Below, one piece after another: positions 12,932 through 28,757 of a DNA stretch of 64,000 nucleotides. The translations under genes and the position numbers were made by a program. The DNA lies in contig CP076040.1 in NCBI GenBank assembly GCA_014529675.2, forward strand, positions 1,364,001-1,428,000, in the 5' to 3' direction. The notes beneath the pieces are model-generated. The model saw only the letters and a list, made by a program, of their open reading frames with translations. It did no database searches and had not been told where the DNA came from. Within the stretch, counting starts at the first letter, position 1, and each line of letters opens with the position of its first letter. This DNA is from Opitutia bacterium ISCC 52. Lineage in GTDB: Bacteria; Verrucomicrobiota; Verrucomicrobiia; Opitutales; UBA2995.

Positions 12932-14478
12932 ATCTCGATGAGGTGTTTTTGTGGCTCGGGAATGTGGTCGTAACGGAGTTCTCCGCCAATGACTCTCATT
13001 AAGACTCCCTTCTTTTGATTTTCTTTCCCAAAAAGATATTCGTCCTCTGGAACCGGTATGTCTTTCATATCTGCTTCGGTCTTATCAAAGAGTGCTTTTA
13101 GGCGTGCAACCACTTCCGGGTGTTTTGCGGCCAGGTTCGCTTGCTCGGATGAATCAGTCTCCATGTCAAAGAGCATCATGGGTGATGGTTTCATTCCTGT
13201 CGTGATACCCGGGTATTCACTCGGATCAGCCTGTTCAAAAGGGGCGATAATGGTCACGCCATCGGGTGCCCTGCGGTTAACTCGTTTCCGAGCTTCTTCG
13301 ATGGGTAAGTTGATCATGTTGACCGGTCCTGGATTTAGGACATGCAGTTTCCATTTCCCAGATCGAACGACGGCCAAGTTACTCCCCCGCATGCCGAATA
13401 TGGCTTCGTGTGGACTTGCTTGGGAATCGTTTTGCATCATGGGCAAAATATTGCGCCCATCGATCGTTCTATCAGCGGGCACTTTACTGCCGGTAAGGTG
13501 GCAAATTGTAGGCAGAATGTCGACTGTGGCAGCTGGGTGATGATTGACGACACCTGGTGGAATAGTGCCCGGCATGTAGGCGATCATCGGCACTCGAAGT
13601 CCGCCCTCCCAAGTCTTCCCTTTCATACCACGTAATCCGCCGGTTGACCCTCCATAAAAGGGACCGTTGTCGGAGGTGAATATAACCAGTGTGTTTTCCT
13701 TCAAGCCCAGATCATCAAGGCCATCCAAAAGGTGACCGACTGAATGATCCAGTTCTGCAATGACGTCCGCATAGAGATTGTCAGGAGTGTTTGGAGTATA
13801 GAAATTGTCAGACATTGCCAGCGGTTTGTGGGGCATGGCATGGGGCAAATAGACGAAGAACGGCGTGTCTTTGTTTCGTTTGGCAAAGTCGAGTGTCAGG
13901 TCGGTGTAAAGCTGGGTGAGTTTCCCTTGGTCAACCGGGTATTCGGTGACCTCCTCATTCTTAACCATTTGTACCGGAAACATGTCGTTGGAGTAGAGAA
14001 TGCCTTGGTATTCATCAAAGCCTTGAGTTCGGGGCAGCCATTGTTCTTTGTGCCCCAAGTGCCATTTGCCATACATGGCTGTATTGTAGCCACGATCTTT
14101 TAGAATCTCGGCGATGGTGATCTCAGATGAGGGTAGTCCAATGTTGTTTTGCCCGGCATCCGGAGCCGGATTGAGAACCACGGTGTGTCGAAAGGGATAA
14201 CGTCCTGTCAGAATCGTTCCTCTTGACGGCGCGCAGTACGGAGTTGGAACGTAGAAATGAGTAAGCTTTGCACCCTCGGCCACCATTTGATCGAGGCGTG
14301 GTGTCTCAAAGGGGCTATCCGGGTAGAAGGCTCCTACATCTCCATAACCGAGATCATCGGCAAAGATGAGTATGACGTTGGGTTTCGCCGCTTCAGCATG
14401 AACCAGCACGGTAGCAAAAATGAGTGAGATAAAAGCTACTAATCGCTCATAGTGACATCTGCGGTTAGGGTTGTTCAT
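12928..14478 (-). CDS. Secreted formylglycine-dependent sulfatase (S1 family)
   Basis: A 516-residue sulfatase with a signal peptide (FISLIFATVLVHAEA), metal-binding FADDLGYGDVG at 39-49 and a canonical formylglycine site C82 in YCAPSRGTILTG. KWHLGHK follows, and FTSDNGPFYGGSTGGLRGMKG provides the second Asp-Asn pair and the active-site Lys/Gly region. It is the first gene of a three-gene operon with VOC and propeller genes joined by 4-bp overlaps. Predicted role: hydrolysis of sulfate esters on an extracellular glycan or its oligosaccharides in the periplasm. The natural substrate cannot be read from the sequence. Confidence 0.9.
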   Translation of the reverse strand: MNNPNRRCHYERLVAFISLIFATVLVHAEAAKPNVILIFADDLGYGDVGAFYPDSPFETPRLDQMVAEGAKLTHFYVPTPYCAPSRGTILTGRYPFRHTVVLNPAPDAGQNNIGLPSSEITIAEILKDRGYNTAMYGKWHLGHKEQWLPRTQGFDEYQGILYSNDMFPVQMVKNEEVTEYPVDQGKLTQLYTDLTLDFAKRNKDTPFFVYLPHAMPHKPLAMSDNFYTPNTPDNLYADVIAELDHSVGHLLDGLDDLGLKENTLVIFTSDNGPFYGGSTGGLRGMKGKTWEGGLRVPMIAYMPGTIPPGVVNHHPAATVDILPTICHLTGSKVPADRTIDGRNILPMMQNDSQASPHEAIFGMRGSNLAVVRSGKWKLHVLNPGPVNMINLPIEEARKRVNRRAPDGVTIIAPFEQADPSEYPGITTGMKPSPMMLFDMETDSSEQANLAAKHPEVVARLKALFDKTEADMKDIPVPEDEYLFGKENQKKGVLMRVIGGELRYDHIPEPQKHLIEI

Positions 14479-14619
14479 GGAAATCTTAGGGCCTCAATAG
14501 TTAACATTAGAGATTCAATGTTTCTGCCTCAGGAAGGTCAATCATCTCGATTAATCAGTTCTTCTTAATTCTTGATAAGCAATCTCTTTTCAAGGTAGCC
14601 TTTTCTCATTCATAGGATT

Positions 14620-14949
14620 ATGCTTCGTTACGAGCTTGTTAGAAATGAAATCGGTCGGGATACCAACAGCTTCGAAGACTTTCGCGAGTTTGAGAATAGT
14701 GTGCTTGCTGATCCGGATGTTACTGCCATCGAAGAGGGACCTTTAACCAGGCGTGCTTATTCGGTCGTCTTCAAATTGTATAGGCGATTGGGTCGATCCT
14801 TGGGGCTTCGTCCTCCCTTTCAATTGCCGAGTAATCCCTCATTCGATTGGCGAATTGCTATTCTGGGAGGCCTTGCTTTTCGTCGCTGTCCTAACTTCGT
14901 GTTTAAGGGAAGGAAGGCGGCTTATTTGTATGATTCTTTTGAACCTTGA
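14620..14949 (+). CDS. Glycosyltransferase, N-terminal fragment (cut by in-frame TGA)
   Basis: The 109 codons from the ATG at 14620 give the N-terminal part of a GT-B-like protein ending KAAYLYDSFEP, then TGA at 14947-14949. The next codons in exactly the same frame continue as TTADQIKRFVEDAGI and run without a break into the downstream fragment. Read through, the gene covers 14620-15576, about 318 residues. A Trp at the stop position (FEPWTTADQ) would be natural, so TGG to TGA is the simplest explanation. Likely a surface-polysaccharide transferase, given the sugar epimerase eight bases downstream. Confidence 0.65.
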   Translation: MLRYELVRNEIGRDTNSFEDFREFENSVLADPDVTAIEEGPLTRRAYSVVFKLYRRLGRSLGLRPPFQLPSNPSFDWRIAILGGLAFRRCPNFVFKGRKAAYLYDSFEP

Positions 14950-15006
14950 ACGACGGCTGATCAGATTAAGCGCTTTGTCGAAGATGCAGGGATATCTGTT
15001 CTCTTT

Positions 15007-15576
15007 GTGAGTCATCCCGATTGTGCCGGCGAACTCGATTCTCTCATTGAGAACTGTCGTGTATATTACATTCCAGAGGGAGCAGATCCTAACGGTTATA
15101 AAACAGATGCGCCTAAGACGATTGATCTAATTGCGTTTGGAAGAAAGAACTACCCACATCACAATGCCTTGCTTGAGGAACTGGATCCGAAGGTTGTCTA
15201 TCAGTGTAGTTGGCTGGATACCCGTCAGGACTTTTTGGATGCATTGGCGGCCTCCAAGATCGCTATCAATTTCCCCAGAAATATGACCGTGGATAATTGT
15301 GAGATCGAGATGTTAACCATGCGGTATTTTCAGGCCATGGGAACAAGATCAATCTTGTTGGGGCATTGCCCAAAACTGCTCAAAGACTTGTTTGGATACG
15401 ATCCGGTCATCGAAGTGGATATCCAGAATCCCGGTGCGCAGGTACAGGATATCTTGGACAATTATGAGGACTATATTCCCATGATTGAAAAAAATTATCA
15501 AAGCTTCATTCAGGGACATACATTCTCGCATAGATGGAATAGGATGAAACAGGTTCTAGAGGAAACACCTTCCTGA
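15007..15576 (+). CDS. Glycosyltransferase, C-terminal fragment
   Basis: These 189 codons start formally at a GTG, but the frame is open back to the TGA at 14947, so this is the second half of the gene beginning at 14620. It carries the GT-B acceptor/donor region: VFVSHPD-like opening, YYIPEGADP, IDLIAFGRKNYPHHNALL, then CEIEMLTMRYFQAMGTRSILLG, where the conserved Glu of family-1/4-type glycosyltransferases would lie. Ends with a helix ending SHRWNRMKQVLEE. Without read-through or reversion the domain would lack its N-terminal half. Spacing to the next gene is 7 bp. Confidence 0.65.
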   Translation: MSHPDCAGELDSLIENCRVYYIPEGADPNGYKTDAPKTIDLIAFGRKNYPHHNALLEELDPKVVYQCSWLDTRQDFLDALAASKIAINFPRNMTVDNCEIEMLTMRYFQAMGTRSILLGHCPKLLKDLFGYDPVIEVDIQNPGAQVQDILDNYEDYIPMIEKNYQSFIQGHTFSHRWNRMKQVLEETPS

Positions 15577-15583
15577 ACACGCT

Positions 15584-16612
15584 ATGAAAGACCTTCCGAA
15601 TTCATTTTTTCCTGATGATATTAAAAATCAACGTATCCTTATTGCCGGCGGTGGCGGATTTATTGGCGGTCACTTAGTCGCCGATTTAATGAAGCGAGGG
15701 TGCACGGATATTGTCGTTGCTGACATCAAACCAACGGAGCAGTGGCACCAGATCTTCTCGAAAAATGAGAACCAGGTAGCTGATTTTTCTAAAGAGCAAG
15801 AATGCATGCGCTTGGTCGAAGGTTGTGATAGGATTTATAATCTTGCCTGCAACATGGGAGGGATGGGTTTTATTGAGTTTAACAAAGCTCTGTGTATGTG
15901 TAGTGTACTTATCAATACGCATTTGCTGGATGCGGCTCGTCACCATGGATGTAAGAGGTTGTTTTTCTCATCGACGGCCTGCGTTTATGCTGCCGATAAA
16001 CAGCTGGCTTCAGATGTAGCTGCATTAAAAGAATCAGATGTTTATCCCGCCATGCCGGAAGATGGCTATGGATGGGAAAAGTTATTTTCCGAACGCATGT
16101 GCAGACACTACATGGAGGATTTTGATATCCAGACTCGGGTGGCCAGGTTTCACAATGTATATGGTCCATTTGGAACCTACGATGGGGGTCGTGAAAAAGT
16201 GCCGGCTGCTCTTTGCCGGAAGATCATTTCAAGCAAGCTGAGTGGAGACCATCAGTTAGAAATCTGGGGCGATGGTGAACAACCCCGTTCATTTATGTAC
16301 ATCGATGATTGTATTCACGGGATCCACTTGATCATGGAATCGGACCACTGGAATGAGCCCATCAACTTGGGGAGCTCTGAAATGGTTTCAATTAATCAGC
16401 TCGCTGACATCATTGAGGACCTGGCAGGCATCACCCTTCAGAGGAATTACAAGTTGGATGCCCCGAAGGGTGTCCGTGGAAGATCCTCGGATAATACACT
16501 GATCAACGAAGTGTTCGGGTGGGAACCCTCCATTTCACTGCGTGAGGGTCTGGAGAAGACCTATGACTGGATCTTCGAGCAAATTAGTTCAGGGTCGACT
16601 GCCCTCAAATAA
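15584..16612 (+). CDS. NAD-dependent sugar epimerase, GDP-mannose 3,5-epimerase-like
   Basis: A 342-residue extended SDR. The NAD loop GGGGFIGG is at 22-29, the GDP-mannose-3,5-epimerase-like NLACNMGGMGFIE at 86-98, SSTACVY at 129-135 and catalytic Y162/K166 in YGWEK. RFHNVYGPFGTYDGGREKVPAALCRK and EIWGDGEQPRSFMYIDDC also match that family closely. The plant enzyme converts GDP-D-mannose to GDP-L-galactose/gulose; bacterial relatives make activated deoxy- or hexoses for surface glycans. It forms an operon with the interrupted glycosyltransferase upstream. The exact nucleotide sugar is not determinable. Confidence 0.8.
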   Translation: MKDLPNSFFPDDIKNQRILIAGGGGFIGGHLVADLMKRGCTDIVVADIKPTEQWHQIFSKNENQVADFSKEQECMRLVEGCDRIYNLACNMGGMGFIEFNKALCMCSVLINTHLLDAARHHGCKRLFFSSTACVYAADKQLASDVAALKESDVYPAMPEDGYGWEKLFSERMCRHYMEDFDIQTRVARFHNVYGPFGTYDGGREKVPAALCRKIISSKLSGDHQLEIWGDGEQPRSFMYIDDCIHGIHLIMESDHWNEPINLGSSEMVSINQLADIIEDLAGITLQRNYKLDAPKGVRGRSSDNTLINEVFGWEPSISLREGLEKTYDWIFEQISSGSTALK

Positions 16613-16632: not shown

Positions 16633-17388
16633 CTAAAGCTCTTTAACCTTGATGTTGCGGAAGTGAACTTCGCCTGCCTTGCCAGAGTGAATTTGTAGGC
16701 TGAAAAAGCCTTCCGTGTATTCTTTGGTTTTCCAGTGAGCAGCAGGCACGCCATTAAGCCAGGTCTTGATGGCATTGCCTTTGGCCCGAACGGTGAGTCG
16801 ATTCCATCCGTCTTTTTTCATGGCATTGCGAACTTCTTTGTGGGCTTCCAACCAAAGTGGGTAGATCCACCCGCCGGCGCTTTGACCGTAGATGCCGCCG
16901 GACCAATAACGTTCTTTGGAAAATGCCTCCATTTCAGCCTGAGGGCCGAAGACGGTTTGATACTTTTTATTCTTTCCTTCACCGGGTCTGGCTTGTCCAC
17001 GAAACATAACACCGGTGTTTCCATCCACTAACCACTTGAACTCAGCTGTGAAAATAAAGTCGGTATAGTCATCCTTCATGGTAGACAGATAGGTGCTGGG
17101 TGATCCCGGGACGGTGGTGCCTACAATTACATCGCCTTCGGCTTCAAATGTGCAATAGCCACCTAGAGGTTCCCAGTCGTTGAGGTCCTTGCCGTTATAG
17201 AGACTGACAAAACCCTTCTTCAAGCTGGGCTCTTTAGTCTCATTGATAAGCATGTCCCCTGCAGAAGGGATGTTTTCCTGCTTTTTATAGACCTCGATCC
17301 ACTTCTCTTGTGATTGGGCGATCTTGTTGGCGAAGGCGCCTGAAGTGAGTGTGATCAGGGCAAGAAGAACAATGTGTAGCTTTTTCAT
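16633..17388 (-). CDS. DUF1080 (3-keto-disaccharide hydrolase-like) secreted protein
   Basis: A 251-residue protein with a signal peptide (LHIVLLALITLTSGAFA) and one concanavalin-like DUF1080 domain from about residue 58: SLYNGKDLNDWEPLGG, FIFTAEFKWLVDGNTGVMFRGQ, WNRLTVRAKGNAIKTWLNGVPAAHW and the final GEVHFRNIKVKEL. Members of this family include 3-keto-glycoside hydrolases of Bacteroidetes and are greatly expanded in Planctomycetes and Verrucomicrobia. It is the last gene of the inositol operon, 58 bp behind the sulfatase, so it may handle a glycoside whose aglycone or product enters that pathway. Confidence 0.82.
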   Translation of the reverse strand: MKKLHIVLLALITLTSGAFANKIAQSQEKWIEVYKKQENIPSAGDMLINETKEPSLKKGFVSLYNGKDLNDWEPLGGYCTFEAEGDVIVGTTVPGSPSTYLSTMKDDYTDFIFTAEFKWLVDGNTGVMFRGQARPGEGKNKKYQTVFGPQAEMEAFSKERYWSGGIYGQSAGGWIYPLWLEAHKEVRNAMKKDGWNRLTVRAKGNAIKTWLNGVPAAHWKTKEYTEGFFSLQIHSGKAGEVHFRNIKVKEL

Positions 17389-17446: not shown

Positions 17447-18841
17447 TTAGTCTTCACACTCCGGATCCGGTGGAGGTACCGCCTTGGCTTCTATACCTGA
17501 ATTCAGGTAGGGCTGTTTCAGTGGATCATCATTCATGGAATCAAAGGCTTGCTTAAGCGAATGGTGGGCAGTGGCTGCTTCTTGGATCAGATCTGCTCTC
17601 GATAAGTTCATTTCCTCAAGGGGGTCTTGCCGGGTATGATAAAAGCGACCGTCGCCATACAGCTTCCAACTGTCGTTGAATACAAATCGAGCTGCCGGCA
17701 TGGGTGTATTGAAATAATCGGCTCCCCATTGTGGATCGTAATGCATGAAAATGGAATCCCGGGTGTAGTCGGTCTCACCCTTGGCATAAGGAATCAAATT
17801 TACACCATCCAGTTCTGTAGTCGTTGGCTTTCCTGCTACTGACTGAAGTGTGGCATAAACGTCCAGGAGTTCAACCAGACCCTCCTTTACGGTTCCCGTT
17901 GGTACCTCTCCTTTCCATTGCATGATATAAGGAACATGGGTGCCCGCGGTTTTGGTATTCCATTTCCCTCCAGTGATGGATTTCCCGTTCCGCATCGATG
18001 TTATTTGCGGATGCGTGCCATTATCGCCGATGAACCAGATCAGGGTGTTTTCCGTGAGCTCGTGTTCGTCCAGCTTTGCAAGCACCCGGCCGATCATTTT
18101 GTCCAGGTAGGTCATCATCCCGGAAAACTTTTCCTTCGGTGTTTCCGCATCCAGGCTATCGGGCGTTGTTGTCCACGGGTCGTGAGCCAAGATCGGATTG
18201 TAGTAGACGAAGAAGGGTTCATCTTTGTTTCGGTCAATGAAGTCTAAAACGTAGGCATTAAGGATCGTGGGTCCAAAGTCGTCTTTGCAGTACGTTTTGT
18301 TTTCGTGATTTAAGGTGAAGGTGGGCTGCCAATAACGACCCCCTTTCAAGGTGCGTTCCAATTGCCAGACGATGTGCTCATCAAAACCGAGATCCCAGGG
18401 ATATGAACCCTTGCCTCCATACTCCATATTGCCGGCCAGTTGCCATTTTCCAGCAACGACACTTTCGTAACCAGCATCTTTCAGGTATCGGGGAAGGGCA
18501 TACAACTCAGGATCCAAATGGGCGAAGGCCTTGTAGTGTTTGAAGTTGTGGGTCCCTGCCAGAAGACGTGTTCGACTGGTAGTACAAACGGGAGTGGCGT
18601 GGCCTTGGTCGAAACGAACACCATTCGTAGCCAGTGAATCGATGTGGGGAGTGTCATACCCACCTCCATAAGCGCCAATGGTTTCCACACCAATGTCATC
18701 TGCGAGGATGATGATGATGTTTGGGGGACTTAAATCTGACAGTTTATCAGATGATTCTCCAGTGCCACAACCAACCAAGGCTCCAGCCAAACCAATGGCA
18801 GTAACAATATGTTGGAAGTGTTGAGAAAAATTCAAAATCAA
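17447..18841 (-). CDS. Lipoprotein sulfatase (S1 family) in the inositol operon
   Basis: A 464-residue sulfatase with a lipobox (ALVGC, Cys25), so it should be membrane-anchored and periplasm- or surface-facing. The metal-binding ILADDIGVETIGAYGG lies at 45-60 and the formylglycine site is C86 in VCTTSRTRLLAG, with Thr in place of Pro/Ala at the third position. GKWQLAG replaces the usual GKWHLG, keeping Lys but changing the His to Gln, and FIGDNGTHPQ supplies the DN pair. The gene begins only 3 nt after the stop of iolG, a spacing that implies a single translation unit. A sulfated inositol or inositol glycoside is a plausible, untested substrate. Confidence 0.85.
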   Translation of the reverse strand: MILNFSQHFQHIVTAIGLAGALVGCGTGESSDKLSDLSPPNIIIILADDIGVETIGAYGGGYDTPHIDSLATNGVRFDQGHATPVCTTSRTRLLAGTHNFKHYKAFAHLDPELYALPRYLKDAGYESVVAGKWQLAGNMEYGGKGSYPWDLGFDEHIVWQLERTLKGGRYWQPTFTLNHENKTYCKDDFGPTILNAYVLDFIDRNKDEPFFVYYNPILAHDPWTTTPDSLDAETPKEKFSGMMTYLDKMIGRVLAKLDEHELTENTLIWFIGDNGTHPQITSMRNGKSITGGKWNTKTAGTHVPYIMQWKGEVPTGTVKEGLVELLDVYATLQSVAGKPTTTELDGVNLIPYAKGETDYTRDSIFMHYDPQWGADYFNTPMPAARFVFNDSWKLYGDGRFYHTRQDPLEEMNLSRADLIQEAATAHHSLKQAFDSMNDDPLKQPYLNSGIEAKAVPPPDPECED

Positions 18842-18844
18842 ACT

Positions 18845-19858
18845 CTAAATTTCTGACACGTCCACGGGTCGGTTCTCGTGATAGGACTTGGTGGCGGCGA
18901 GTGCTATGCGTAGTGCCTCGACTCCGTCCTCTGCAGTGATGGATGGAGGATTCCCGCTGATTACATTCTCTATGAAGTCTGCCAATTGATCGACATACGC
19001 TTTTTCAAAGCGTTCGTAAAACCCAGGAACCGTATCATGAGAGATATTATCCTCCTTCATCACTTTGATCGGGGTCTCCTGATCGTAGCCCAGTTGAAGC
19101 GTCCCCTCGGTTCCTAGAAGTTCCGCGTAGATGGCGTAGCCGTAAATTGCGTTTCTTGAGAGGTCAATGGCTCCAATACAGCCACCTTCGAAATACATAT
19201 TTACGATGGCATTGTCTACATCACCAATCTCTTTCATCTCGGGGTAGGCCAAAACACCCGCTACGGTGTAGACACTCTTTACGTTCCCCATCAGGAAACG
19301 GGCTACATCAAAATCATGGATGCCCATGTCCACGAAAAGTCCACCGCTAGTCTCTGGTCTTAAATAGTCCAAAGGTGGGCGCTCTCGGTCGCGAGAGGTA
19401 GCTTTATATTGTACCCGTTTCCCAATGACGCCATCCTTTACTTTTTGTTTGGCTGCGATGTAGGCATTGTCAAAGCGTCGCATGAAGCCCATCTGGAAGA
19501 AAGCTCCTGTTTGTTCCATCACCTCTTTGATCTCAATGCATTCGTCGATGCCTAGAGATAAGGGCTTTTCACAAAAGATGGCCTTTCCGGCTCTGGCCGC
19601 ATCGATGGCATTCGCTTTATGGTAGCTGGTTGGAGTGACAATGATGATAGCATCAATCTCGTCGTCCACTAGCATATCCTGATAATCTGTGTAGTAGCGT
19701 TTGGCACCGTATTCTTCCGCAACCTCTTTGGCAACTTCCTCACGCACGTCAGATACGGCTATGAGATTGGCTTTAGGTAAGCGGTTTGCGCAATAGTTGG
19801 TATAGAGGCTGCCCAGTCGTCCCAGGCCAACCACGCCGACATTTACTTTTTTTGACAT
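18845..19858 (-). CDS. iolG: Inositol 2-dehydrogenase
   Basis: A 337-residue Gfo/Idh/MocA oxidoreductase: Rossmann GLGRLG at 11-16, the EKP dinucleotide-domain motif at 97-99 and the catalytic-side DMGIHDFDVARF near 177-188 with the expected Asp and His. IolG oxidises myo-inositol to 2-keto-myo-inositol with NAD+, the first step of the pathway. The assignment rests on this motif set plus iolE, iolD, iolB and iolA upstream in the same operon. It follows the SDR by 23 bp and precedes the sulfatase by 3 bp. It could act on scyllo- or chiro-inositol as well. Confidence 0.85.
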   Translation of the reverse strand: MSKKVNVGVVGLGRLGSLYTNYCANRLPKANLIAVSDVREEVAKEVAEEYGAKRYYTDYQDMLVDDEIDAIIIVTPTSYHKANAIDAARAGKAIFCEKPLSLGIDECIEIKEVMEQTGAFFQMGFMRRFDNAYIAAKQKVKDGVIGKRVQYKATSRDRERPPLDYLRPETSGGLFVDMGIHDFDVARFLMGNVKSVYTVAGVLAYPEMKEIGDVDNAIVNMYFEGGCIGAIDLSRNAIYGYAIYAELLGTEGTLQLGYDQETPIKVMKEDNISHDTVPGFYERFEKAYVDQLADFIENVISGNPPSITAEDGVEALRIALAATKSYHENRPVDVSEI

Positions 19859-19881
19859 AAATAGTTTTGGTTAGAAATTAG

Positions 19882-20718
19882 TTATACTCCACTGTAGGCG
19901 TTGAAACCACCATCCACCGGTAGGACTACTCCTGTAATGAAAGCGGAACATTGTGATAAAAGAAAAAGGGTCGGCCCAATCAGCTCATTTTGATCGCCGA
20001 AGCGATGCATGGGGGTCAGTTGCAAAACACGCTTGTAGCGGTCGGTCATTTCGCCGTCTTCATCGTAAGCAAGGAACTTCAGTTGCTCAGTCAGGAAAAA
20101 CCCAGGTGCGATGGCATTTACGCGAACTCCCGCTTCAGCTAAATGGACGGCCAACCATTCTGTAAAATTACTCAACGCACACTTTCCGGCCGAGTAGGCA
20201 GGAATTTTGGTCAAAGGACGATAGGCATTCATCGATGAAATATTGAGAATAGCTCCTCGCTTTTTCTTCACGAGTAGTGGTCCCAAAATCTGAGAAGGAA
20301 GCACGGTGCCCATGAGGTTTAGATCCAAGGTGAAGCGAAAGTCATCCTCCGGGAGATCGAAAAATGAGCCTTTCAAATCTTTGGCATCCGGTGAGACTTG
20401 TTCGATTTCTGTGGAAGCCTTAGGGCTGTTTCCGCCAGCACCATTGATGAGGAAATCAAGCCCACCAAACTGATCCACTAATTGATCTCGGGCTGCTTCG
20501 ATAGATTCTTTTTCCAAGACATTGCATGCGATGCCTGCGCTTTTGATTCCGTGTTGTTCGTTGAGTTCTTTTGCAAGCTTTTGGGCCTTCTCCTCATCGA
20601 GGTCCAGAATGGCAACGTGCATGCCATTCGTTGCCAAGCCATGGCCTAATGCATGGCCAATCACGCCGGCACCACCGGTGATGGCGACAGTTTTGTTTCT
20701 TAGATCTTCAAATGACAT
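19882..20718 (-). CDS. SDR oxidoreductase, UxuB/YjmF-like (fructuronate-reductase type)
   Basis: A 278-residue classical SDR: GGAGVIGHALG cofactor loop at about 15-25, NGAGGN near 91-96, catalytic Ser in ISSMNAYRP, YSAGK as the YxxxK motif, and GVRVNAIAPGFFLTEQLKFL, which matches the SDR-type D-mannonate oxidoreductase (YjmF/UxuB) subgroup. That enzyme reduces a 5-keto-hexonate. The inositol intermediate 2-deoxy-5-keto-gluconate is also a 5-keto-hexonate, so a role on that or a related inositol-derived acid is conceivable (inference). It sits between the symporter and iolG, 18 and 23 bp away. Confidence 0.78.
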   Translation of the reverse strand: MSFEDLRNKTVAITGGAGVIGHALGHGLATNGMHVAILDLDEEKAQKLAKELNEQHGIKSAGIACNVLEKESIEAARDQLVDQFGGLDFLINGAGGNSPKASTEIEQVSPDAKDLKGSFFDLPEDDFRFTLDLNLMGTVLPSQILGPLLVKKKRGAILNISSMNAYRPLTKIPAYSAGKCALSNFTEWLAVHLAEAGVRVNAIAPGFFLTEQLKFLAYDEDGEMTDRYKRVLQLTPMHRFGDQNELIGPTLFLLSQCSAFITGVVLPVDGGFNAYSGV

Positions 20719-20736
20719 GTTAAATGTATTGTATGA

Positions 20737-22509
20737 TTAGTCGGTTGTTTCCTGTTGTTTCCCATAGCGGTTTGAAATGAACACCTCATACTTTTTATGA
20801 AGCCAGGTATGTGCCCACCAGCAGAATGCAAAACAGGTAGCTATGGATACCAGAAACCACAGCCAGAAATTGGGTGCGACAACTGCGTCTGAGTAAGCAA
20901 AGCCCACTTTGGAAAAGATCACATAGGTCAAGCTGGCCAATGAAAGGAGTACGGCGCTGATCAGCATGCTGTATCTCCATGGCATCATTTCAACCTTCGG
21001 CGCATGGCGGTGTGTGAACGCCTCATGGTGTGGCCATATGCGTGACCAGAAAACCACGATTCCCGTTTCAACCAGAAAGAGAATACTGAAAGTATGCATC
21101 CAGTGGATGGGCATCGTAATACCTACTTTTTCAAATCCCCATACGAGTATGTAATAGGTCACGATGTGGAAGATGATTACAAACTGAGCCGCTCGATGAG
21201 GGATTCTTAGATTCTGGGCAAACAGTCCGAGGATAATCAGGCAGGCAATCGGAATGGCGATGAATCCAAAAAATTTGGCGATGAAAATAAAGATACCCTC
21301 TGGAGCCTTGATGAGGTTAGGGGCTCCGAGAATGGTGAAAACAGCGGCGACTACGGCAAACTTCTTGGCTACGGAGATGAGTTGGTGATCATTCGCAGTT
21401 TTGTTGATCAGTGGTTTATAGATATCGATGGCAAACATCGTCGCCGACGAATTAAGCAATGAGTTGTAGGTGGAGAATACCGCACCAAGCAGCACCGCAA
21501 TAAACAATCCCATCAAAGGGGCCGGAAGGGTTTCGGCGACCAATGCCGGGTAGGCCATGTCGCCGGGAGTAATGTCGGGTCCTAATAAATGAAATGCTAT
21601 CAGACCGGGTGCCATGGCCAGGAAAGGAATCAGGATTTTGAAGAAGCCGGCCAAGAGCAGTCCCTTTTGACCTTCTTTCAAACTGGCAGCTCCTAGAGCA
21701 CGTTGAATAATGAACTGGTTGGTGCCCCAGTAAAAGACCGCCATGATCAGTAACCCTGTGAATACCGCCGAAATGGGAATGGCATCGAGTTCATCTCCAA
21801 TACCAATGGCATTCAGCTTATACGTGTGAGTGGTGGTGATTTCTTTTAGGGCATCCATCACTCCTCCGCCTAGCTTGTTGCCCAGGGCCATTAGGCCAAA
21901 GATCGGTATCAGGCATCCCATTACGAGTAGCCCCAATCCGTTCAGCGTATCTGAGATGGCCACTGCTCGAAGGCCACCGAATACGGCATAGATAGCCCCA
22001 ATGATTCCAATGATGACGGTTACAAGCCAGAGCGATTGAATCTGAGACAGTCCGGTCATTCCTTCCACATTGAGAATCTTCATCAATGCCAGTGAACCCC
22101 CATACAAGACAGACGGCGATAACACGAAGATGTAGCCGAACAGAAGTAGGCCTACGACCATCCTCTGAGTGCCTGACCCATAACGAGATTGAAGAAACGA
22201 GGGCATGGTCGCAAATGCTCCACCAAGATACATGGGCAGAAACAATACCGCCAATAGAATGATGCCTCGCACCGCCCAGATCTCCCAGGCCATAGGCGTC
22301 ATATTACCCATGTAGGTCATTCCATTCTGACCAATCAGCTGTTCAGTCGAAATGTTGGTTAAGAGCAGCGAGCCGCCAATGAAAAGTCCGGTTAATCCGT
22401 TTCCTGCGAGGAAGTAGCCACTCGATGTTGATACCTTTCCTCGGGTTTTGCTCCAGGAATACCAGGCAACAAATCCCATGAATGCGATGCAGGAAAAGAA
22501 GGTCAACAC
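20737..22509 (-). CDS. Sodium/solute symporter (SSS family), probable inositol importer
   Basis: A 590-residue inner-membrane transporter with about fourteen hydrophobic segments. SSS features include GYFLAGNGLTGLFIGGSLLLTNISTEQLIGQNG early and AVFGGLRAVAISDTLNG, the family's sodium-symporter signature region (GGLRAVAISD). The start is a GTG at 22509 directly after the iolA stop; no upstream ATG exists in frame. It resembles the SGLT/SMIT branch, which includes myo-inositol transporters, and its position inside the iol operon makes an inositol a likely substrate. Confidence 0.85.
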   Translation of the reverse strand: MLTFFSCIAFMGFVAWYSWSKTRGKVSTSSGYFLAGNGLTGLFIGGSLLLTNISTEQLIGQNGMTYMGNMTPMAWEIWAVRGIILLAVLFLPMYLGGAFATMPSFLQSRYGSGTQRMVVGLLLFGYIFVLSPSVLYGGSLALMKILNVEGMTGLSQIQSLWLVTVIIGIIGAIYAVFGGLRAVAISDTLNGLGLLVMGCLIPIFGLMALGNKLGGGVMDALKEITTTHTYKLNAIGIGDELDAIPISAVFTGLLIMAVFYWGTNQFIIQRALGAASLKEGQKGLLLAGFFKILIPFLAMAPGLIAFHLLGPDITPGDMAYPALVAETLPAPLMGLFIAVLLGAVFSTYNSLLNSSATMFAIDIYKPLINKTANDHQLISVAKKFAVVAAVFTILGAPNLIKAPEGIFIFIAKFFGFIAIPIACLIILGLFAQNLRIPHRAAQFVIIFHIVTYYILVWGFEKVGITMPIHWMHTFSILFLVETGIVVFWSRIWPHHEAFTHRHAPKVEMMPWRYSMLISAVLLSLASLTYVIFSKVGFAYSDAVVAPNFWLWFLVSIATCFAFCWWAHTWLHKKYEVFISNRYGKQQETTD

Positions 22510-22527
22510 GAGCAGCTTATATAAATC

Positions 22528-24024
22528 TTATTTTCTCCAAACGTCTTCGTTCCCAAACCATCGAGAAGTAACGGTCTTTTCTCGGGTATAAAAGCGAACG
22601 CCGTCGCGGCCTTGAATGTGTAGGTCACCAAAGAAGGACGCATCCCAGCCGCTGAAAGGAAACATCGCCATTGGGGCAGGGACGCCCACATTGATGCCGA
22701 CCATGCCGGCTTTTACCCGATGTTTGAATTCTCGGGCTGCACTCCCCGAGGTGGTAAAAATAGCTGTGCCATTTCCAAATGCGGAGGTGTTGGCCAGATC
22801 CAGGGCTTCACCCAGATTGCCGGCTCGCAATACGCTCAGTACGGGGCCAAACACTTCCGTTTCGGCCAAAGTCGATTTCGCTTCGACTTCATCCACGACT
22901 GTTGCGCCCAAATAGAAACCATTCGGCGCTTCATCAATTTTTGTGCCACGTCCATCGCTTAGGATTTTTCCTCCCTGGTCTGCACCTTCTGTGATTAATT
23001 CAGTAACGCGTTCCTGATGTTCACGTGTGATTACGGCTCCCATTTGAGGTTGTGGATCGCGATCGGTTGGACCCACTTTCAAACTCTTGGCGGCATCGAC
23101 GAGTTCGGGAAGGACGGTTTTAGAAGCATCTCCCACGCAAACCGCATTGGCGATAGCCATGCAGCGTTCCCCAGCGCAGCCAAACGCTCCACCCATAATA
23201 CCATCTACGGAGGTCTTTACGTCTGCGTCGGGCATAATAATGACGTGGTTCTTGGCACCTCCATTGGCTTGGACGCGCTTCCCATTTTTGGTCCCCGTTT
23301 CGTAAATGTATTTTGCCACAGGAGTAGAGCCCACAAATGAAATAGCTCGAACGTCGGGATGAGTCAGTAGTGTGTCCACACTTTCCTTACCTCCATGAAC
23401 AAGGTTGAGAACACCTTTAGGGAGCCCTGCTTGCTCAAGCAACTGAATGAGTCGGATCGAAGTGAGTGGGACTTTTTCGCTGGGTTTGAAGATAAAGGTA
23501 TTCCCTGAAGCGATAGCCAGAGGAAACATCCACATAGCTATCATGGCGGGAAAGTTGAACGGAGTAATCCCGGCGCACACACCGAGTGGTTGTCGGATCA
23601 CTTCGCAGTCGATACCTCGAGCAATGTTTTCGAGGTATTCTCCTTTGAGTAGCTCAGGGATACCGCAGGCGTATTCCACGCACTCGAGGCCACGTTGGAG
23701 CTCGCCGCGTGATTCGCCCAGGGTCTTTCCGTGTTCCAGCGAAATGGTCCGGCAGATGGAGTCGAACTCCTGTTCTAGAAGGGTACGGTATTTGAAGAGC
23801 ACTCGTGCGCGTTCAATGGCAGGAGTTTCCCACCAAGCGGGAAAGGCATCCTTGGCCGCTTGAACGGCGTCGTTTACGGTCGCTGCATCTGCCAGTGGTG
23901 ACTCAGCGATAACGTCCCCGGTTGAAGGGTTGTATACGGGACTGGTTGGAAGATCGGATCGTTCCGTCCATTCGCCGTTAATGAAGAAAGGGCAGGGCTT
24001 TAATGCCTCTGTTGTAGTGCTCAT
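22528..24024 (-). CDS. iolA: Methylmalonate/malonate-semialdehyde dehydrogenase (CoA-acylating)
   Basis: A 498-residue aldehyde dehydrogenase of the MmsA/IolA type. TPFNFPAMIAMWMFPLA at 154-170 and the NAD-domain FVGSTPVAKYIY at 230-241 are typical, with the catalytic Cys288 in GCAGERCMA and the glycine-rich PFSGWDASFFGDLH near the end. It converts malonate semialdehyde to acetyl-CoA, CO2 and NADH, the last step of inositol catabolism. It sits between the transaldolase-like gene (19 bp) and the symporter (18 bp). Confidence 0.92.
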   Translation of the reverse strand: MSTTTEALKPCPFFINGEWTERSDLPTSPVYNPSTGDVIAESPLADAATVNDAVQAAKDAFPAWWETPAIERARVLFKYRTLLEQEFDSICRTISLEHGKTLGESRGELQRGLECVEYACGIPELLKGEYLENIARGIDCEVIRQPLGVCAGITPFNFPAMIAMWMFPLAIASGNTFIFKPSEKVPLTSIRLIQLLEQAGLPKGVLNLVHGGKESVDTLLTHPDVRAISFVGSTPVAKYIYETGTKNGKRVQANGGAKNHVIIMPDADVKTSVDGIMGGAFGCAGERCMAIANAVCVGDASKTVLPELVDAAKSLKVGPTDRDPQPQMGAVITREHQERVTELITEGADQGGKILSDGRGTKIDEAPNGFYLGATVVDEVEAKSTLAETEVFGPVLSVLRAGNLGEALDLANTSAFGNGTAIFTTSGSAAREFKHRVKAGMVGINVGVPAPMAMFPFSGWDASFFGDLHIQGRDGVRFYTREKTVTSRWFGNEDVWRK

Positions 24025-24043
24025 AATGGTTTTGATAAATGCG

Positions 24044-25105
24044 TTAGACCAGCATGTGGCTGCGGATGTCTTTTAATAGGCCTTCGTAGCCTTCGATGAA
24101 ACCATTGATGGTATGAATGGATGCGCCATAGCTGGCAAACTCCTGAGGTGTCATACCGTCTTCATCGTAGGCCTGCTTAAAGTCATCAAATTTCATCAGA
24201 TCATTGAAAATGGTTTCGTCCATCGCTTCTTCAAGGCTCAAGCGTGGTTCGATATCCGCATCCTTGTATTTATTCCACCAAGGGTAGGGGATGGATTGAA
24301 GTACGTCCGTACCTATGATTTCAGACCAATTAACTTGGTTTCGGTAGGCCGCGGCAAGGAGTGTGCTTTTGTAGCCTCTTTCACGAAAGATTTCTGCTGC
24401 TCGTTTGAATACTGCTACGCCTCCCCATTCGAGGGATTCAGGATCTACATCTATTCCGCCAGCTGCGAACGTGCGTTTGAGTTGGTCATCCACACGACCG
24501 ATCATAATGGTAATGTAGGGATGAATTGAGTTGGGGTCTTCGGCTCGTTTCAAACCACGCTCTATAGCTTCTGCTGCTGCGATTGCTTGGGCGACCGAAA
24601 AGGATACGGTGACGTTAACGCGTATGCCTGCCGCTGTCATTTCTTCGTATGAAGCAATACCAGCTCGGGTAGCCGGCGCCTTGATGGCGATGTTGGGTGC
24701 CAATGCGGCAAGTTCTTTCGCATGCTCTACCATGCGCTCGGTATTGTTGTAGTATTTCGGGTTTACCTGCAGGCACAGGTAACCTTTCACGCCGTTGGTT
24801 TGTTCATAAACCGGAAGTAAGAGTTTTGAAGCATCGGTTCCGACACGGGCAATCAATTTCCAGGCAATCTCTTCCTCGCTGTCGGAAGGATTGTTCTGAA
24901 TGAGCTCTTTAATGACTGGAATCCAGCGGTCTGGATCTTGTTCAACAGCTGCTGCTACGATGACGGGATTGGAGGTGGCACCAACAGCACCTGTCTGCAC
25001 GGCATCGGAGAGTTCAGTGATGTCACATGAATCGTTCCACCAATCGGCTCCAAGGGCCTGCATGCGATGCATGTTGTTTTTATTGAGAGTCTCTGTGTCT
25101 GACAT
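24044..25105 (-). CDS. Transaldolase-family class I aldolase in the inositol operon
   Basis: A 353-residue TIM-barrel protein of the transaldolase superfamily: VGATSNPVIV at 41-50, the Schiff-base lysine K142 in NIAIKAPATRAGI and the following GIRVNVTVSFSVAQAIAAAEA. Canonical transaldolases have the same NPxI, IKxPAT and NVTLxFS elements. It occupies the place between iolE and iolA where other bacteria carry iolJ (2-deoxy-5-keto-gluconate-6-phosphate aldolase). No kinase is in the operon. A Schiff-base aldolase could in principle split 2-deoxy-5-keto-gluconate to dihydroxyacetone and malonate semialdehyde; this is inference. Alternatively it is an ordinary pentose-phosphate transaldolase. Confidence 0.82.
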   Translation of the reverse strand: MSDTETLNKNNMHRMQALGADWWNDSCDITELSDAVQTGAVGATSNPVIVAAAVEQDPDRWIPVIKELIQNNPSDSEEEIAWKLIARVGTDASKLLLPVYEQTNGVKGYLCLQVNPKYYNNTERMVEHAKELAALAPNIAIKAPATRAGIASYEEMTAAGIRVNVTVSFSVAQAIAAAEAIERGLKRAEDPNSIHPYITIMIGRVDDQLKRTFAAGGIDVDPESLEWGGVAVFKRAAEIFRERGYKSTLLAAAYRNQVNWSEIIGTDVLQSIPYPWWNKYKDADIEPRLSLEEAMDETIFNDLMKFDDFKQAYDEDGMTPQEFASYGASIHTINGFIEGYEGLLKDIRSHMLV

Positions 25106-25126
25106 AGGTATCGTGGGTTTAAGAAA

Positions 25127-26038
25127 TTATAATCCTGTTTTGTCTTTCAAATAACTGCGTGCCATGGACGCATATTCCTTAGGGTTGGCTTTTTCCGGAT
25201 CCTGTTCGGCTTCAATGACGAACCAACCGGTATATCCGTGATCCGCAAGTCGTTCCAGAAGTGGAGGGTAGTCGACGCCGCCTTCGGGATCTCCTGGTAC
25301 GGTATAGACTCCGGCCCTCACGGCCTGACCAAAGGATAGCCTTTCTTCTCGAACTTGCTGCACGATGTTTGGGCGCACATTTTTCAAATGCACGTGTGCA
25401 ATCCGATCGATGTATTTTTCCTGAACACGTGCCGGGTCAATTCCCGCGAACGCTAAATGCCCCGTGTCGAATAACAGGTTTAACTTACTTGTGTTGGCCA
25501 TGAGTCCGTCCAACGCAGCTTCCGACTGAACGACCGTTCCCATGTGATGGTGGTAGACGGCAGGAATGCCAGCATCTGCTGCCAATTCACTGAGCCTGTC
25601 CAAACTCTGATAAACTCGCTGCCATTGTTCCCCGGACAGGTCGATCAGGTCATCACCGAATTTCAAAGGCTGCGCCTCGTCTCCATGAATGGCATTGCTG
25701 CATTCAGCAAGGATGACCACAGAGGCATTCATAGCTTTGAGGAAATTCAAGTATTTGAGGAAGCTCGCTTCCTCTTCTTTGTAGGGATTTTCTCCGAAGT
25801 AGGTGCTGTGCCATCCTCCGACGAGTCGGAGATGATGGGCATCCATGAGCGGGCGTAGCTCGTCGGGGTTTTTTGAATACTTATTCCCCACTTCGGTTCC
25901 GGTATAGCCAGCCTCTTGCATGTCTGCAAAGCACGACTCTAAAGGAATGTGTCCACCCAAATCCTGGAAGTCATCATTGCTCCAGTTAATGGGATGAACC
26001 CCCAGGGGATTCTGTAATTCCCGAAATTTATCCCGCAT
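25127..26038 (-). CDS. iolE: Inosose (2-keto-myo-inositol) dehydratase
   Basis: A 303-residue xylose-isomerase-like TIM barrel. The visible family features are MRDKFRELQNPLGVHPINWSNDD at the start, EVGNKYSKNPDELRPL, and the metal-binding regions VYHHHMGTVVQSE and LLFDTGHLAFAG, with HVHLKNVRP and a final WFVIEAEQDP. IolE dehydrates 2-keto-myo-inositol to 3D-trihydroxycyclohexane-1,2-dione using Co2+ or Mn2+. I chose the ATG at 26038, two bases after the iolD stop; a TTG two codons upstream is less likely. Confidence 0.92.
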   Translation of the reverse strand: MRDKFRELQNPLGVHPINWSNDDFQDLGGHIPLESCFADMQEAGYTGTEVGNKYSKNPDELRPLMDAHHLRLVGGWHSTYFGENPYKEEEASFLKYLNFLKAMNASVVILAECSNAIHGDEAQPLKFGDDLIDLSGEQWQRVYQSLDRLSELAADAGIPAVYHHHMGTVVQSEAALDGLMANTSKLNLLFDTGHLAFAGIDPARVQEKYIDRIAHVHLKNVRPNIVQQVREERLSFGQAVRAGVYTVPGDPEGGVDYPPLLERLADHGYTGWFVIEAEQDPEKANPKEYASMARSYLKDKTGL

Positions 26039-26040
26039 AC

Positions 26041-27909
26041 TCAATAGTAGAACTTCTGGTTCTTTTTAGCTTCTTCGTAATTACGGTGAGATTCCTGAAC
26101 CTCTGGGATACTAGAACTGCCAGAAACTGGAACCTCCCACCATGAGTAGCCTGGAATGTTGGATTCACGGCGAATTGGCACGTAGATCATTGTGGTTCGT
26201 GTCTCTTCCTTGGCTTTGCCCAGCGCGTCAATAAGAGCCTCTTCGCTTTCAGCCCGATAAACCTTGGCACCCATACTCGCCGCATTGGCGCAAAAATCGA
26301 TTTCAACAAACTCACCTTCTAGGCGCTTGCTATCCTCTTTGCGGTGACGGAATTCATTTCCGAAATCGGTTCCACCGCAGCTGGTTTGTAAACCCCTAAT
26401 GCACTGGAAGCCATGGTTGTCTAGGAGGACGACCGTAATCTTCAACCCTTCCTGAATAGACGTCAGAATATCCTGGCTCAGCATCATATAACTTCCATCA
26501 CCAACTAACGTGTAAACTTCGCGATTCGGATCGGCCAGTTTAACACCCATAGCGCCAGCAATTTCATAGCCCATGCAGGAGAAGCCGTACTCAGAATGAT
26601 AGTCTAGAGAGTCCTTGGAATTCCACAGCTTATGAATATCCCCTGGGACACCTCCCGATGCGTGAACCGTGGTTGAGTTTTCATCTGCAAACTCATTAAG
26701 AATATGAATGACCTCACTTTGGTAGAGAGGGCCCTCTTCATTATCGGGATGCACGATATCGGCGTGAGTGGTTTCCCACTCGGCTTTCCAGGATGAGAGA
26801 TTTTCAGAGTAGTCATTAGCGACCGAATGGCCGGCCAATGCAGCGGTCAAATCCTCCAGGACCGCGCGCGCATCGCCAACCAGTGGAAATGCCCCATGCT
26901 TGTGCGCGTCCATCGGATTGACGTTGATGGCGATAAAACGCACGTCGAGATTTTGAAACTGCGATTTGGATGCAGTAGTAAAGTCAGATAGACGAGTGCC
27001 AATATTGATGACTAAATCGGCTTCGACCGCAGCGCGGTTGCCGGCCAAGTTACCTGTGGCACCGACAGCACCCAAACAAAGAGCATGACTTTCCAGCATG
27101 GATCCTTTTCCGGATTGCGAGACAACAACAGGGATGCCACTTGCTTCCGCAAAAAGACGCAGTGCCTCTTCAGCTTCTGAGTAATGAACACCGCCACCGG
27201 CTACGATAAGGGGTTGCTTCGCTGCTTTGATCTGGCTGATCGCTTCCGCCAGTGTGCTTTTCGCCACTGAGTTGCGGTTTAGATTATAAATCCGTTTTTG
27301 AAATAGGTGAACAGGAAAATCATAACTTTCAGCCTGCACATCTTGTGGCAAAGAAACAGTCACTGCACCTGTCTGGGATGGATCGGAGAGTACTCGCATC
27401 GCTTCAGGCAAGGCAGTCAGCAATTGTTCCGGACGGTAAATGCGATCCCAGTATTTGGAAACGGGTTTGAAACAGTCATTCACCCCTGAGTCTTGAGTAT
27501 GAGGATTTTCCAGCTGCTGAAGAACGGGACCGGGAATGCGGCTTGCAAAAATGTCACCTGGTAGAAGCAGGACAGGAAGACGATTTACCGTGGCGGTAGC
27601 AGCTCCGGTAATCATGTTGGTGGCGCCAGGGCCGATGGAGGATGTACAGGCTAATGTGCCGAGTCTACGACGCGCTTTGGCGAACGCCGTGGCCGAATGA
27701 ACCATGCACTGTTCATTTTTACCCTGGTAATAAGGGAGGTCTGTGCCCCCATACTCTTCCAGGGCTTGTCCCAATCCTGTTACGTTACCGTGTCCAAAGA
27801 TTCCAAATACACCATTCACTAGCCGATGCTCTTGGTCATCTCGAGCGATGTATTGATTCTGTAGAAATTTTACAATGGCTGCTCCTACTGATAGTCGTTC
27901 CGTATTCAT
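26041..27909 (-). CDS. iolD: 3D-trihydroxycyclohexane-1,2-dione acylhydrolase (ThDP-dependent)
   Basis: About 622 residues from MNTERLSVGAAIVKFL; a frame extension to 27939 adds ten non-conserved residues. It has the three-domain ThDP enzyme layout: N-terminal PYR domain (NGVFGIFGHGNVTGLGQALEE, with the family's HGNV), a central domain, and the C-terminal PP domain with the cofactor motif GDGSYMMLSQDILTSIQEGLKITVVLLDNHGF. IolD opens the ring to give 5-deoxy-D-glucuronate. Tightly packed with iolB (8 bp) and iolE (2 bp). Confidence 0.93.
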   Translation of the reverse strand: MNTERLSVGAAIVKFLQNQYIARDDQEHRLVNGVFGIFGHGNVTGLGQALEEYGGTDLPYYQGKNEQCMVHSATAFAKARRRLGTLACTSSIGPGATNMITGAATATVNRLPVLLLPGDIFASRIPGPVLQQLENPHTQDSGVNDCFKPVSKYWDRIYRPEQLLTALPEAMRVLSDPSQTGAVTVSLPQDVQAESYDFPVHLFQKRIYNLNRNSVAKSTLAEAISQIKAAKQPLIVAGGGVHYSEAEEALRLFAEASGIPVVVSQSGKGSMLESHALCLGAVGATGNLAGNRAAVEADLVINIGTRLSDFTTASKSQFQNLDVRFIAINVNPMDAHKHGAFPLVGDARAVLEDLTAALAGHSVANDYSENLSSWKAEWETTHADIVHPDNEEGPLYQSEVIHILNEFADENSTTVHASGGVPGDIHKLWNSKDSLDYHSEYGFSCMGYEIAGAMGVKLADPNREVYTLVGDGSYMMLSQDILTSIQEGLKITVVLLDNHGFQCIRGLQTSCGGTDFGNEFRHRKEDSKRLEGEFVEIDFCANAASMGAKVYRAESEEALIDALGKAKEETRTTMIYVPIRRESNIPGYSWWEVPVSGSSSIPEVQESHRNYEEAKKNQKFYY

Positions 27910-27917
27910 AACTTTCC

Positions 27918-28757
27918 TTAATCTTCTTGGGGTTCCCATCCTTGGTTGGTCGGGTCGAGCGTCCAGGCATGGTCTTCAGTAAACTCAAATCCGGTGTAGG
28001 GGTTGCCTTCCAAGTGACGGATCACCCACATATACCACATGCCATAGCCAGGTGCTGATACCTGAGCATGGTCCAATTGCGGAGGGATGATCATCGTATC
28101 ATTTTGTTGTACTTTGAAAACAGCGTCTCCTAATTCGGCATGTCCGTAACCTTGGGGTTCAGTAAACCGATAGTAGTAAATTTCCGGTTGATCATGGTGA
28201 TGGGGTGGGTAACTCGACCATCGGCCCGGGTAGTTTACGACTTCACCAATGACCAGGTTGGATTCCGGGTTGTTCTCATAATCAAAAATCAAACGAACAT
28301 TTCGTCGGCAGGCATCCTGAACCTGTCCCGCTCCTCTATATTCGGGAGATAGGGTCTCAGGAGTGAAGATGCGCACATTGAGTGACTTGTCGTTGTCTGT
28401 TCTGGAGATCGCCCACTCAGCTTCTTTCCCTAAGTTTTCGATCTTCAGTTCGGTGTTGGGACCTATGTGAATCCCAGAAGGTGCTTCATCAAAAATCGAC
28501 TTGCGACTGAGAGAGGCGCTTTGGTCTCCGGCGCTTACTTTGACTTCGCCACGTAAGAGGACCCATACTGATTCTTTGGAATGGCTCTCTTTGATCGTCT
28601 CGGCAACTTCCTGGACACGAATCCCAAAATCAATTCGAGTATCAAGGCCTCCGACTTCGGTATCTCCGGCAGCGGTGACCTTGTTGTAACCGGAGTCATA
28701 GGGCTCAGCCGGGCGAGGGATAAAGTGAGAAGCGAGGTGTGCGTTTGAATGTTCCAT
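27918..28757 (-). CDS. iolB: 5-deoxy-glucuronate isomerase
   Basis: A 279-residue bicupin of the IolB/KduI type. The second cupin contains YPGRWSSYPPHHHDQPEIYYYRF with the three metal-binding histidines and Glu expected of IolB, then DTMIIPPQLDHAQVSAPGYGMWYMWVIRH with the last His. It isomerises 5-deoxy-D-glucuronate to 2-deoxy-5-keto-D-gluconate. It is the first gene of the ten-gene minus-strand operon. A LacI-type palindrome lies 58 bp upstream of its start, so sugar- or inositol-responsive repression is likely. Confidence 0.93.
   Translation of the reverse strand: MEHSNAHLASHFIPRPAEPYDSGYNKVTAAGDTEVGGLDTRIDFGIRVQEVAETIKESHSKESVWVLLRGEVKVSAGDQSASLSRKSIFDEAPSGIHIGPNTELKIENLGKEAEWAISRTDNDKSLNVRIFTPETLSPEYRGAGQVQDACRRNVRLIFDYENNPESNLVIGEVVNYPGRWSSYPPHHHDQPEIYYYRFTEPQGYGHAELGDAVFKVQQNDTMIIPPQLDHAQVSAPGYGMWYMWVIRHLEGNPYTGFEFTEDHAWTLDPTNQGWEPQED

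Follow-up and report, generated by a model that had tools for sequence, protein, structure and literature searches.

The inositol operon of Opitutia bacterium ISCC 52 raises the question of how 2-deoxy-5-keto-gluconate (DKG) is broken down to malonic semialdehyde where the usual kinase and aldolase are not found. The usual marker of inositol catabolism is a single core route to which iolC and iolJ belong. The operon described here, located at 17447-28757 on the minus strand of the window (the whole 64,000-nucleotide stretch of contig CP076040.1 that was analysed), consists of nine open reading frames (ORFs) on one strand, spaced 3-23 bp apart or slightly overlapping, in the order iolB-iolD-iolE-TAL-iolA-symporter-SDR-iolG-sulfatase, where TAL is a transaldolase-like gene and SDR encodes a UxuB-like short-chain dehydrogenase/reductase. 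As in the Bacillus subtilis-type pathway (IolG, E, B, D, C, J and A), IolG, IolE, IolD, an IolB-like protein and IolA are encoded in one operon; in contrast to that pathway, IolC, an IolJ-type aldolase and DUF2090 are not detected in the genome and the operon carries TAL instead. The product of TAL (24044..25105, minus strand), characterised by the Schiff-base residue K142 and by Q113, M201, R204 and R255, is the proposed DKG-cleaving enzyme. We put at roughly two in three the probability that it cleaves unphosphorylated DKG via a Schiff base to malonic semialdehyde, with either fate of the remaining three-carbon unit, and the system is best read as a variant of the known inositol pathway, not as a new class of system.

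The genome containing the window is a single contig of 4.8 Mb, 97.8% complete, and was searched as a whole. No protein passed the IolC model (TIGR04382, cut-off 300 bits), the best of eight matches reaching 110 bits and scoring higher with models for KHG/KDPG aldolase/sugar kinase fusions and KDG kinases, all below their cut-offs. A profile search for DUF2090 returned no match, and no IolJ-type aldolase was found in a search that left class I DeoC and LacD types outside its scope; the sole PF01116 protein passes the models for type IIA fructose-bisphosphate aldolase, whereas the best model for the IolJ-like cluster in other TAL loci is PRK06806. The claim of a first-pass annotation that the operon lacks classical enzymes for the steps from DKG to malonate semialdehyde thus extends to the whole genome, and a location of IolC or IolJ elsewhere in it was rejected on the same profile searches. 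The IolC-DUF2090 fusion (NF047869), which likewise handles the aldolase step without IolJ, differs in retaining the kinase; it was not found in this genome and is present in the TAL locus L097.

In the proposed pathway, IolG, IolE, IolD and IolB would carry out the usual steps from inositol to DKG, and TAL would do alone, kinase-free, what IolC and IolJ do elsewhere. The C5 ketone of DKG would be bound by K142 as a Schiff base and the chain broken between C3 and C4, after which malonic semialdehyde would leave to be converted by IolA into acetyl-CoA. The C4-C6 dihydroxyacetone unit would be held on the lysine and then most likely passed to glyceraldehyde-3-phosphate, producing fructose-6-phosphate. 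This is the course described for the sulfo-TAL enzymes (sulfofructose transaldolase SqvA, BmSF-TAL), by which unphosphorylated sulfofructose is cleaved, the unit is transferred to glyceraldehyde phosphate, and the leftover aldehyde is oxidised or reduced, according to PMC9594981. A dihydroxyacetone unit is what transaldolases transfer, the bonds formed having 3S,4R configuration (PMC3962226). By our own Fischer-projection reasoning, DKG read from the other chain end has its two relevant carbons arranged as in D-fructose.

The TAL protein is 353 amino acids (aa) in length and matches TAL_FSA (PF00923) with 152 bits (cut-off 27), and none of the NCBIfam transaldolase models was passed (best 117.8 bits, cut-off 367). 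Its AlphaFold2 model has a mean predicted local distance difference test score of 96.3, and the closest structures in a fold search with this model are long-type transaldolases, with Z up to 39.1 and a root mean square deviation of 2.1 over 315 residues. Those of Neisseria and Corynebacterium (PDB 3clm and 3r5e) match it in fold along 317-328 residues (Z 39.0 for the first and 37.7 for the second) and share the Schiff-base lysine, but are 25-26% identical and both carry the acid/base Glu where TAL has Gln. Alignment with E. coli TalB and FsaA places K142, assigned as the Schiff-base residue in the first-pass annotation, at Lys132 of TalB, and D25, N46 and T166 at Asp17, Asn35 and Thr156, residues which, with Lys132, we take to be catalytic in TalB. 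R204 and R255 correspond to TalB R181 and R228, so that both phosphate-site arginines are retained; PMC3962226 documents R181 as phosphate-binding. TAL otherwise departs from one or both enzymes: Q113 occupies the position of Glu96 in TalB and Gln59 in FsaA, a likeness to the latter, M201 replaces Phe178 and Tyr131, respectively, and A253 replaces a Ser common to both. Across 85 sequences of the two clades described below (the distant long branch L037 left out), D25, N46, Q113, K142, T166, M201, A253 and R255 do not vary; at the position of R204, 84 sequences have Arg and one has an unreadable letter. This active site common to both clades suggests a single reaction for the two.

Close homologues of TAL (E <1e-90) were identified in eight of 384 genomes of the class, the window's genome included. 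In five of the seven others the gene lies between iolE and iolA; in the sixth it adjoins iolA where the contig ends, and in the seventh it is flanked by iolB and iolD. The comparison of gene order that the first-pass annotation had proposed therefore finds TAL kept in iol operons. In 387 genomes of the phylum, taken as one sample for both the TAL and the iolD search, iolD is present in eight, all of which are among the nine with a close TAL (E <1e-150; 13 genomes at E <1e-50). The probability of this overlap by chance is about 8e-16 if genomes are treated as independent, which they are not, kinship being uncorrected. IolC is above cut-off in none of the eight iolD-bearing genomes, while the three controls with IolC above cut-off are the iolD-bearing B. 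subtilis, C. vibrioides and C. glutamicum. Distant TAL relatives of about 30-36% identity also occur in the phylum (L127-L133), two of them (L128 and L132) next to dehydrogenases that are iolA-like (42-45% identity); the genomes G493 and G553 each contain a closely spaced pair of TAL copies.

A scan of 84,980 species genomes returned at least 562 stretches encoding a TAL relative, of which the best 80 loci were kept, mostly from metagenome-assembled genomes (MAGs) and labelled with more than a dozen phyla. Within the locus, iolB, iolD or iolE is present in 47 of the 80, and any of iolB, iolD, iolE and iolA in 58. A tree of 86 rows, with a midpoint root for drawing only, contains clade A, inside which the window falls (49 rows, support 100/95), its sister clade B (36 rows, 96/90) and one distant row, L037; L048, which shares its contig with L030, the short L101, and L105, for which no clean ORF was obtained, were left out. 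The locus contains iolB, iolD or iolE in 37 of 48 cases in clade A (without the window, L101 and L105) and in 14 of 36 in clade B. Seven clade A loci have none of iolB, iolD, iolE or iolA near TAL; iolD is located elsewhere in five of these genomes (L041, L058, L063, L064 and L076), and genome searches for iolD in the other two (L040 and L083) found none. In L076 (locus at 10001-16510), whose TAL is 77% identical to that of the window, the gene is followed by a symporter, an SDR, IolG in two ORFs and a sulfatase, with no iolB, iolD, iolE or iolA in the locus, and iolD is on another contig.

The search for IolC was made in 59 TAL genomes, comprising 50 from the 80 loci (45 with iolB, iolD or iolE near TAL and five without) and nine others. 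IolC is above cut-off in ten: one of 44 in clade A, nine of 13 in clade B, and neither of two unplaced genomes, L101 and G565, which are absent from the tree and so excluded from the clade A count. L068 and G483 have identical coordinates in the GlpK search and look like the same genome, so that clade A contributes 43 distinct genomes to its count of 44. In the sole clade A genome with IolC (L070), the kinase is on a locus of 2.4 kb with 47% GC, compared with 40% for the TAL locus, and without the iol genes of the window; this genome remains in the count but was set aside as a true case of IolC alongside a clade A TAL, since these features make contamination possible. The kinase-independent variant put forward in the first-pass annotation is thus partly supported, in that TAL is conserved in the iol operons of many genomes without detected IolC, but a plain replacement does not hold across the whole family, as the notion that TAL replaces IolC everywhere is false for the sister clade.

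Several observations weigh against the proposed reaction. With Glu96, the acid/base residue of pentose-phosphate transaldolase (EC 2.2.1.2), replaced by Gln in all 85 sequences, and Phe178 by Met, classical transaldolase activity is not assured for TAL. The window's genome encodes DhaK, DhaL and GlpK, the first two side by side and far from the operon, which could make free dihydroxyacetone usable there. The IolB-like protein scores 98.6 bits against an IolB cut-off of 205, although it matches the Pfam KduI/IolB family with 181 bits and its place in the operon fits. In nine of 13 clade B genomes, TAL and IolC coexist; an IolC-type gene (cluster c7) directly follows TAL in six Selenomonadales loci, and an IolJ-type gene (cluster c10) lies just before it in the same operon in five of the six. 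The presence of IolC and IolJ beside TAL in this clade means that the family may have a different or an additional function. Inositol is also not the only context of TAL: iolD was undetected in 17 of 37 TAL genomes (38 handles), picked because TAL is mostly not beside iolB, iolD or iolE in them, though L039, L078, L112 and L115 do hold iolB or iolE in the locus. Outside the window's genome, the search for the classical kinase and aldolases covered IolC only, and most of these genomes are MAGs, in which absence is weak evidence. Set beside this, iolA is near TAL in nine of the 17 genomes without detected iolD (L035, L071, L087, L089, L105, L111, L113, L114 and L116), in keeping with malonic semialdehyde as the product, and the gene next to TAL in two others (L075 and L112) encodes an iron-type alcohol dehydrogenase (cluster c14); both neighbours would be accounted for by a semialdehyde product undergoing oxidation or reduction.

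Given cleavage of DKG by TAL, transfer of the three-carbon unit to glyceraldehyde-3-phosphate is probable, and its release as free dihydroxyacetone is a credible second outcome. The release version, the only one named in the first-pass annotation, would make TAL an enzyme like fructose-6-phosphate aldolase (FSA), splitting DKG into malonic semialdehyde and free dihydroxyacetone, the latter then phosphorylated by a separate kinase; as a complete account it is doubtful, and its chances form part of those given above for cleavage. The FsaA-like Gln113 leans towards release, as this position is presumably a switch between aldolase and transaldolase behaviour; the PDB titles TalB E96Q/F178Y and FSA Q59E indicate that it has already been studied. 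Dak1 is moreover present in the window's three nearest relatives (L038, L042 and L076), in addition to the kinases of the window's own genome. However, the hallmarks of FSA (about 220 aa and Tyr131) are absent from TAL, with its 353 aa and a Met in all 85 sequences, and the missing tyrosine counts against aldolase behaviour, as does the retention of both phosphate-site arginines. Among 53 TAL genomes, mainly of clade A (43 from the 80 loci and ten others), searches found no Dak1 in 42, no GlpK (E up to 1e-100) in 18, and neither in 16, including G164, with 100% estimated completeness, and L066, a single-contig MAG chromosome. A dihydroxyacetone kinase was therefore rejected as an obligatory partner of TAL, and the 16 genomes without both kinases lean towards transfer, as free dihydroxyacetone should call for a common kinase. 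The lack of a detected IolC kinase, the retained R204 and R255 and these 16 genomes are all compatible with a mechanism like that of sulfo-TAL.

An alternative that we consider unlikely is that TAL cleaves phosphorylated DKG or another 5-keto-hexonate, arising from an inositol isomer or from an aldonate oxidised by the SDR, either beside IolC and IolJ or in place of IolJ only. The joint occurrence of TAL and IolC in clade B favours this view, as do the SDRs found next to TAL. The SDR of the window (19882..20718, minus strand) belongs to the PRK08277 type (D-mannonate oxidoreductase subfamily; 357 bits, cut-off 281), and its homologues above 200 bits were identified in five of 88 loci scanned (L042, L076, L087, L100 and L102), the first two of which adjoin the window in the tree. 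The homologue is located 17 bp from TAL in L087 and 4 bp in L100, neither assembly having a detected iolD; in L102 it is separated from TAL by 0.9 kb and lies on the opposite strand. SDRs with lower scores (75-92 bits) lie 0-4 bp from TAL in L040, L041 and L095; gene calls in this comparison are simple ORF picks, and cluster c21 (L040 and L041) at least overlaps a better SDR frame. Against a phosphorylated or different substrate, 43 of the 44 clade A genomes have no IolC-type kinase above cut-off, and close SDR homologues are missing from most clade A loci. The first-pass annotation had counted the SDR among the genes filling the gap left by IolC and IolJ, but with close homologues in so few loci the inositol route seems not to need it, and it was rejected as a required enzyme. 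Its pairing with TAL in L087 and L100 suggests instead an accessory role, as a second entry linking an aldonate to the same 5-keto acid.

Two Treponema loci (L089:2904-13570 and L111) combine TAL and iolA with a Zn-dehydrogenase that resembles PRK10083 (284 bits against a cut-off of 376), an arrangement that likewise favours another substrate; they also contain transport genes of the LivH/UrtB kind, genes of the SDR cluster and one weak match to a methyltransferase, and possibly represent an aldonate pathway without detected iolD. On the Clavibacter plasmid pCI3 (L166), iolC, iolB, iolD and a transaldolase-family gene of 39.5% identity lie within about 12 kb, together with an aldolase annotated as deoxyribose-phosphate aldolase.

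That TAL is an ordinary pentose-phosphate transaldolase co-transcribed by chance, with DKG phosphorylated and cleaved by unrecognised enzymes elsewhere, would fit the TAL_FSA fold, the catalytic residues and the usefulness of a spare copy in a genome whose E. coli-type transaldolase reads in two frames, but is improbable in view of the linkage to iol genes across phyla, the co-occurrence of TAL with iolD in eight of eight genomes, the distinct and near-invariant active-site set and the failure of every NCBIfam transaldolase model. The E. coli-type transaldolase itself (G000:C1:14831-15728; L010 and L013) is split between two ORFs that overlap in different frames close to four consecutive C, the result of a genuine frameshift or of an error in base calling.

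Cleavage of unphosphorylated DKG by TAL thus remains the preferred reading, and sulfo-TAL is a documented counterpart close to it: that a PF00923 protein cleaves an acid-tailed ketose without a kinase, and that the aldehyde acid left over is then oxidised or reduced, is documented there (PMC9594981) and proposed here. The substrates differ, being a carboxylate for the window and a sulfonate for sulfo-TAL, and BmSF-TAL is of the short type (about 220 aa) while TAL is of the long type (about 350 aa), their likeness being distant (Z 22.7 over 201 residues). A wider proposal could go either way: that TAL represents an undescribed family, either a DKG:glyceraldehyde-3-phosphate glycerone transferase or a DKG aldolase, defining a kinase-independent inositol pathway as the inositol counterpart of sulfo-TAL in more than a dozen phyla (Opitutales, Marinimicrobia, Myxococcota and Spirochaetota are among the lineages), and that it also acts on DKG formed from aldonates via the SDR. 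No description of a transaldolase in inositol breakdown was found in the parts of the open-access literature consulted, though one may exist elsewhere; the accessible text of papers on phytate and inositol in Mitsuokella and Megamonas (PMC7618129 and PMC12130570) mentions no such enzyme, and that of PMC8873060 and PMC12482443 describes no transaldolase in this role. If correct, this would be a kinase-free shortcut for inositol, a common plant sugar alcohol, predicted from genomes and seemingly present in many bacteria. Annotation by iolC and iolJ would then overlook inositol users across entire lineages, a new activity that breaks C-C bonds would await description, and inositol and phytate breakdown would have a different energy balance, DKG costing no ATP in the case of transfer.

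The remaining operon genes, all on the minus strand, bear out the tight inositol operon with a symporter reported in the first-pass annotation. The first gene encodes the IolB-like isomerase of the KduI/IolB family, matched by the Pfam profile of that family (27918..28757), and is followed by those for IolD, a trihydroxycyclohexanedione hydrolase (26041..27939; TIGR04377, 876 bits), and IolE, a myo-inosose-2 dehydratase (25127..26044; TIGR04379, 357.5 bits). Downstream of TAL is the gene for IolA, a (methyl)malonate-semialdehyde dehydrogenase (22528..24024; TIGR01722, 644 bits); IolD, IolE and IolA are above their cut-offs. IolG, an inositol 2-dehydrogenase (18845..19858; TIGR04380), scores 354.8 bits, 0.2 below its own NCBIfam cut-off of 355. 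The sodium:solute symporter between IolA and the SDR is of the PRK10484 type (20737..22509; NF007790, 608 bits, cut-off 401) and is proposed to take up inositol or a derivative. A scan for promoters and terminators upstream of iolB gave one site of each kind, close to the level in shuffled sequence. The 3′ end of the operon encodes a sulfatase-family protein (17447..18841; PF00884, 141 bits), a homologue of which (726 bits) is also located downstream of iolG in L076. Near the operon are another ORF of sulfatase type (12928-14478) and one for a secreted DUF1080-like protein (16633-17388), both labelled from our own reading of the sequence.

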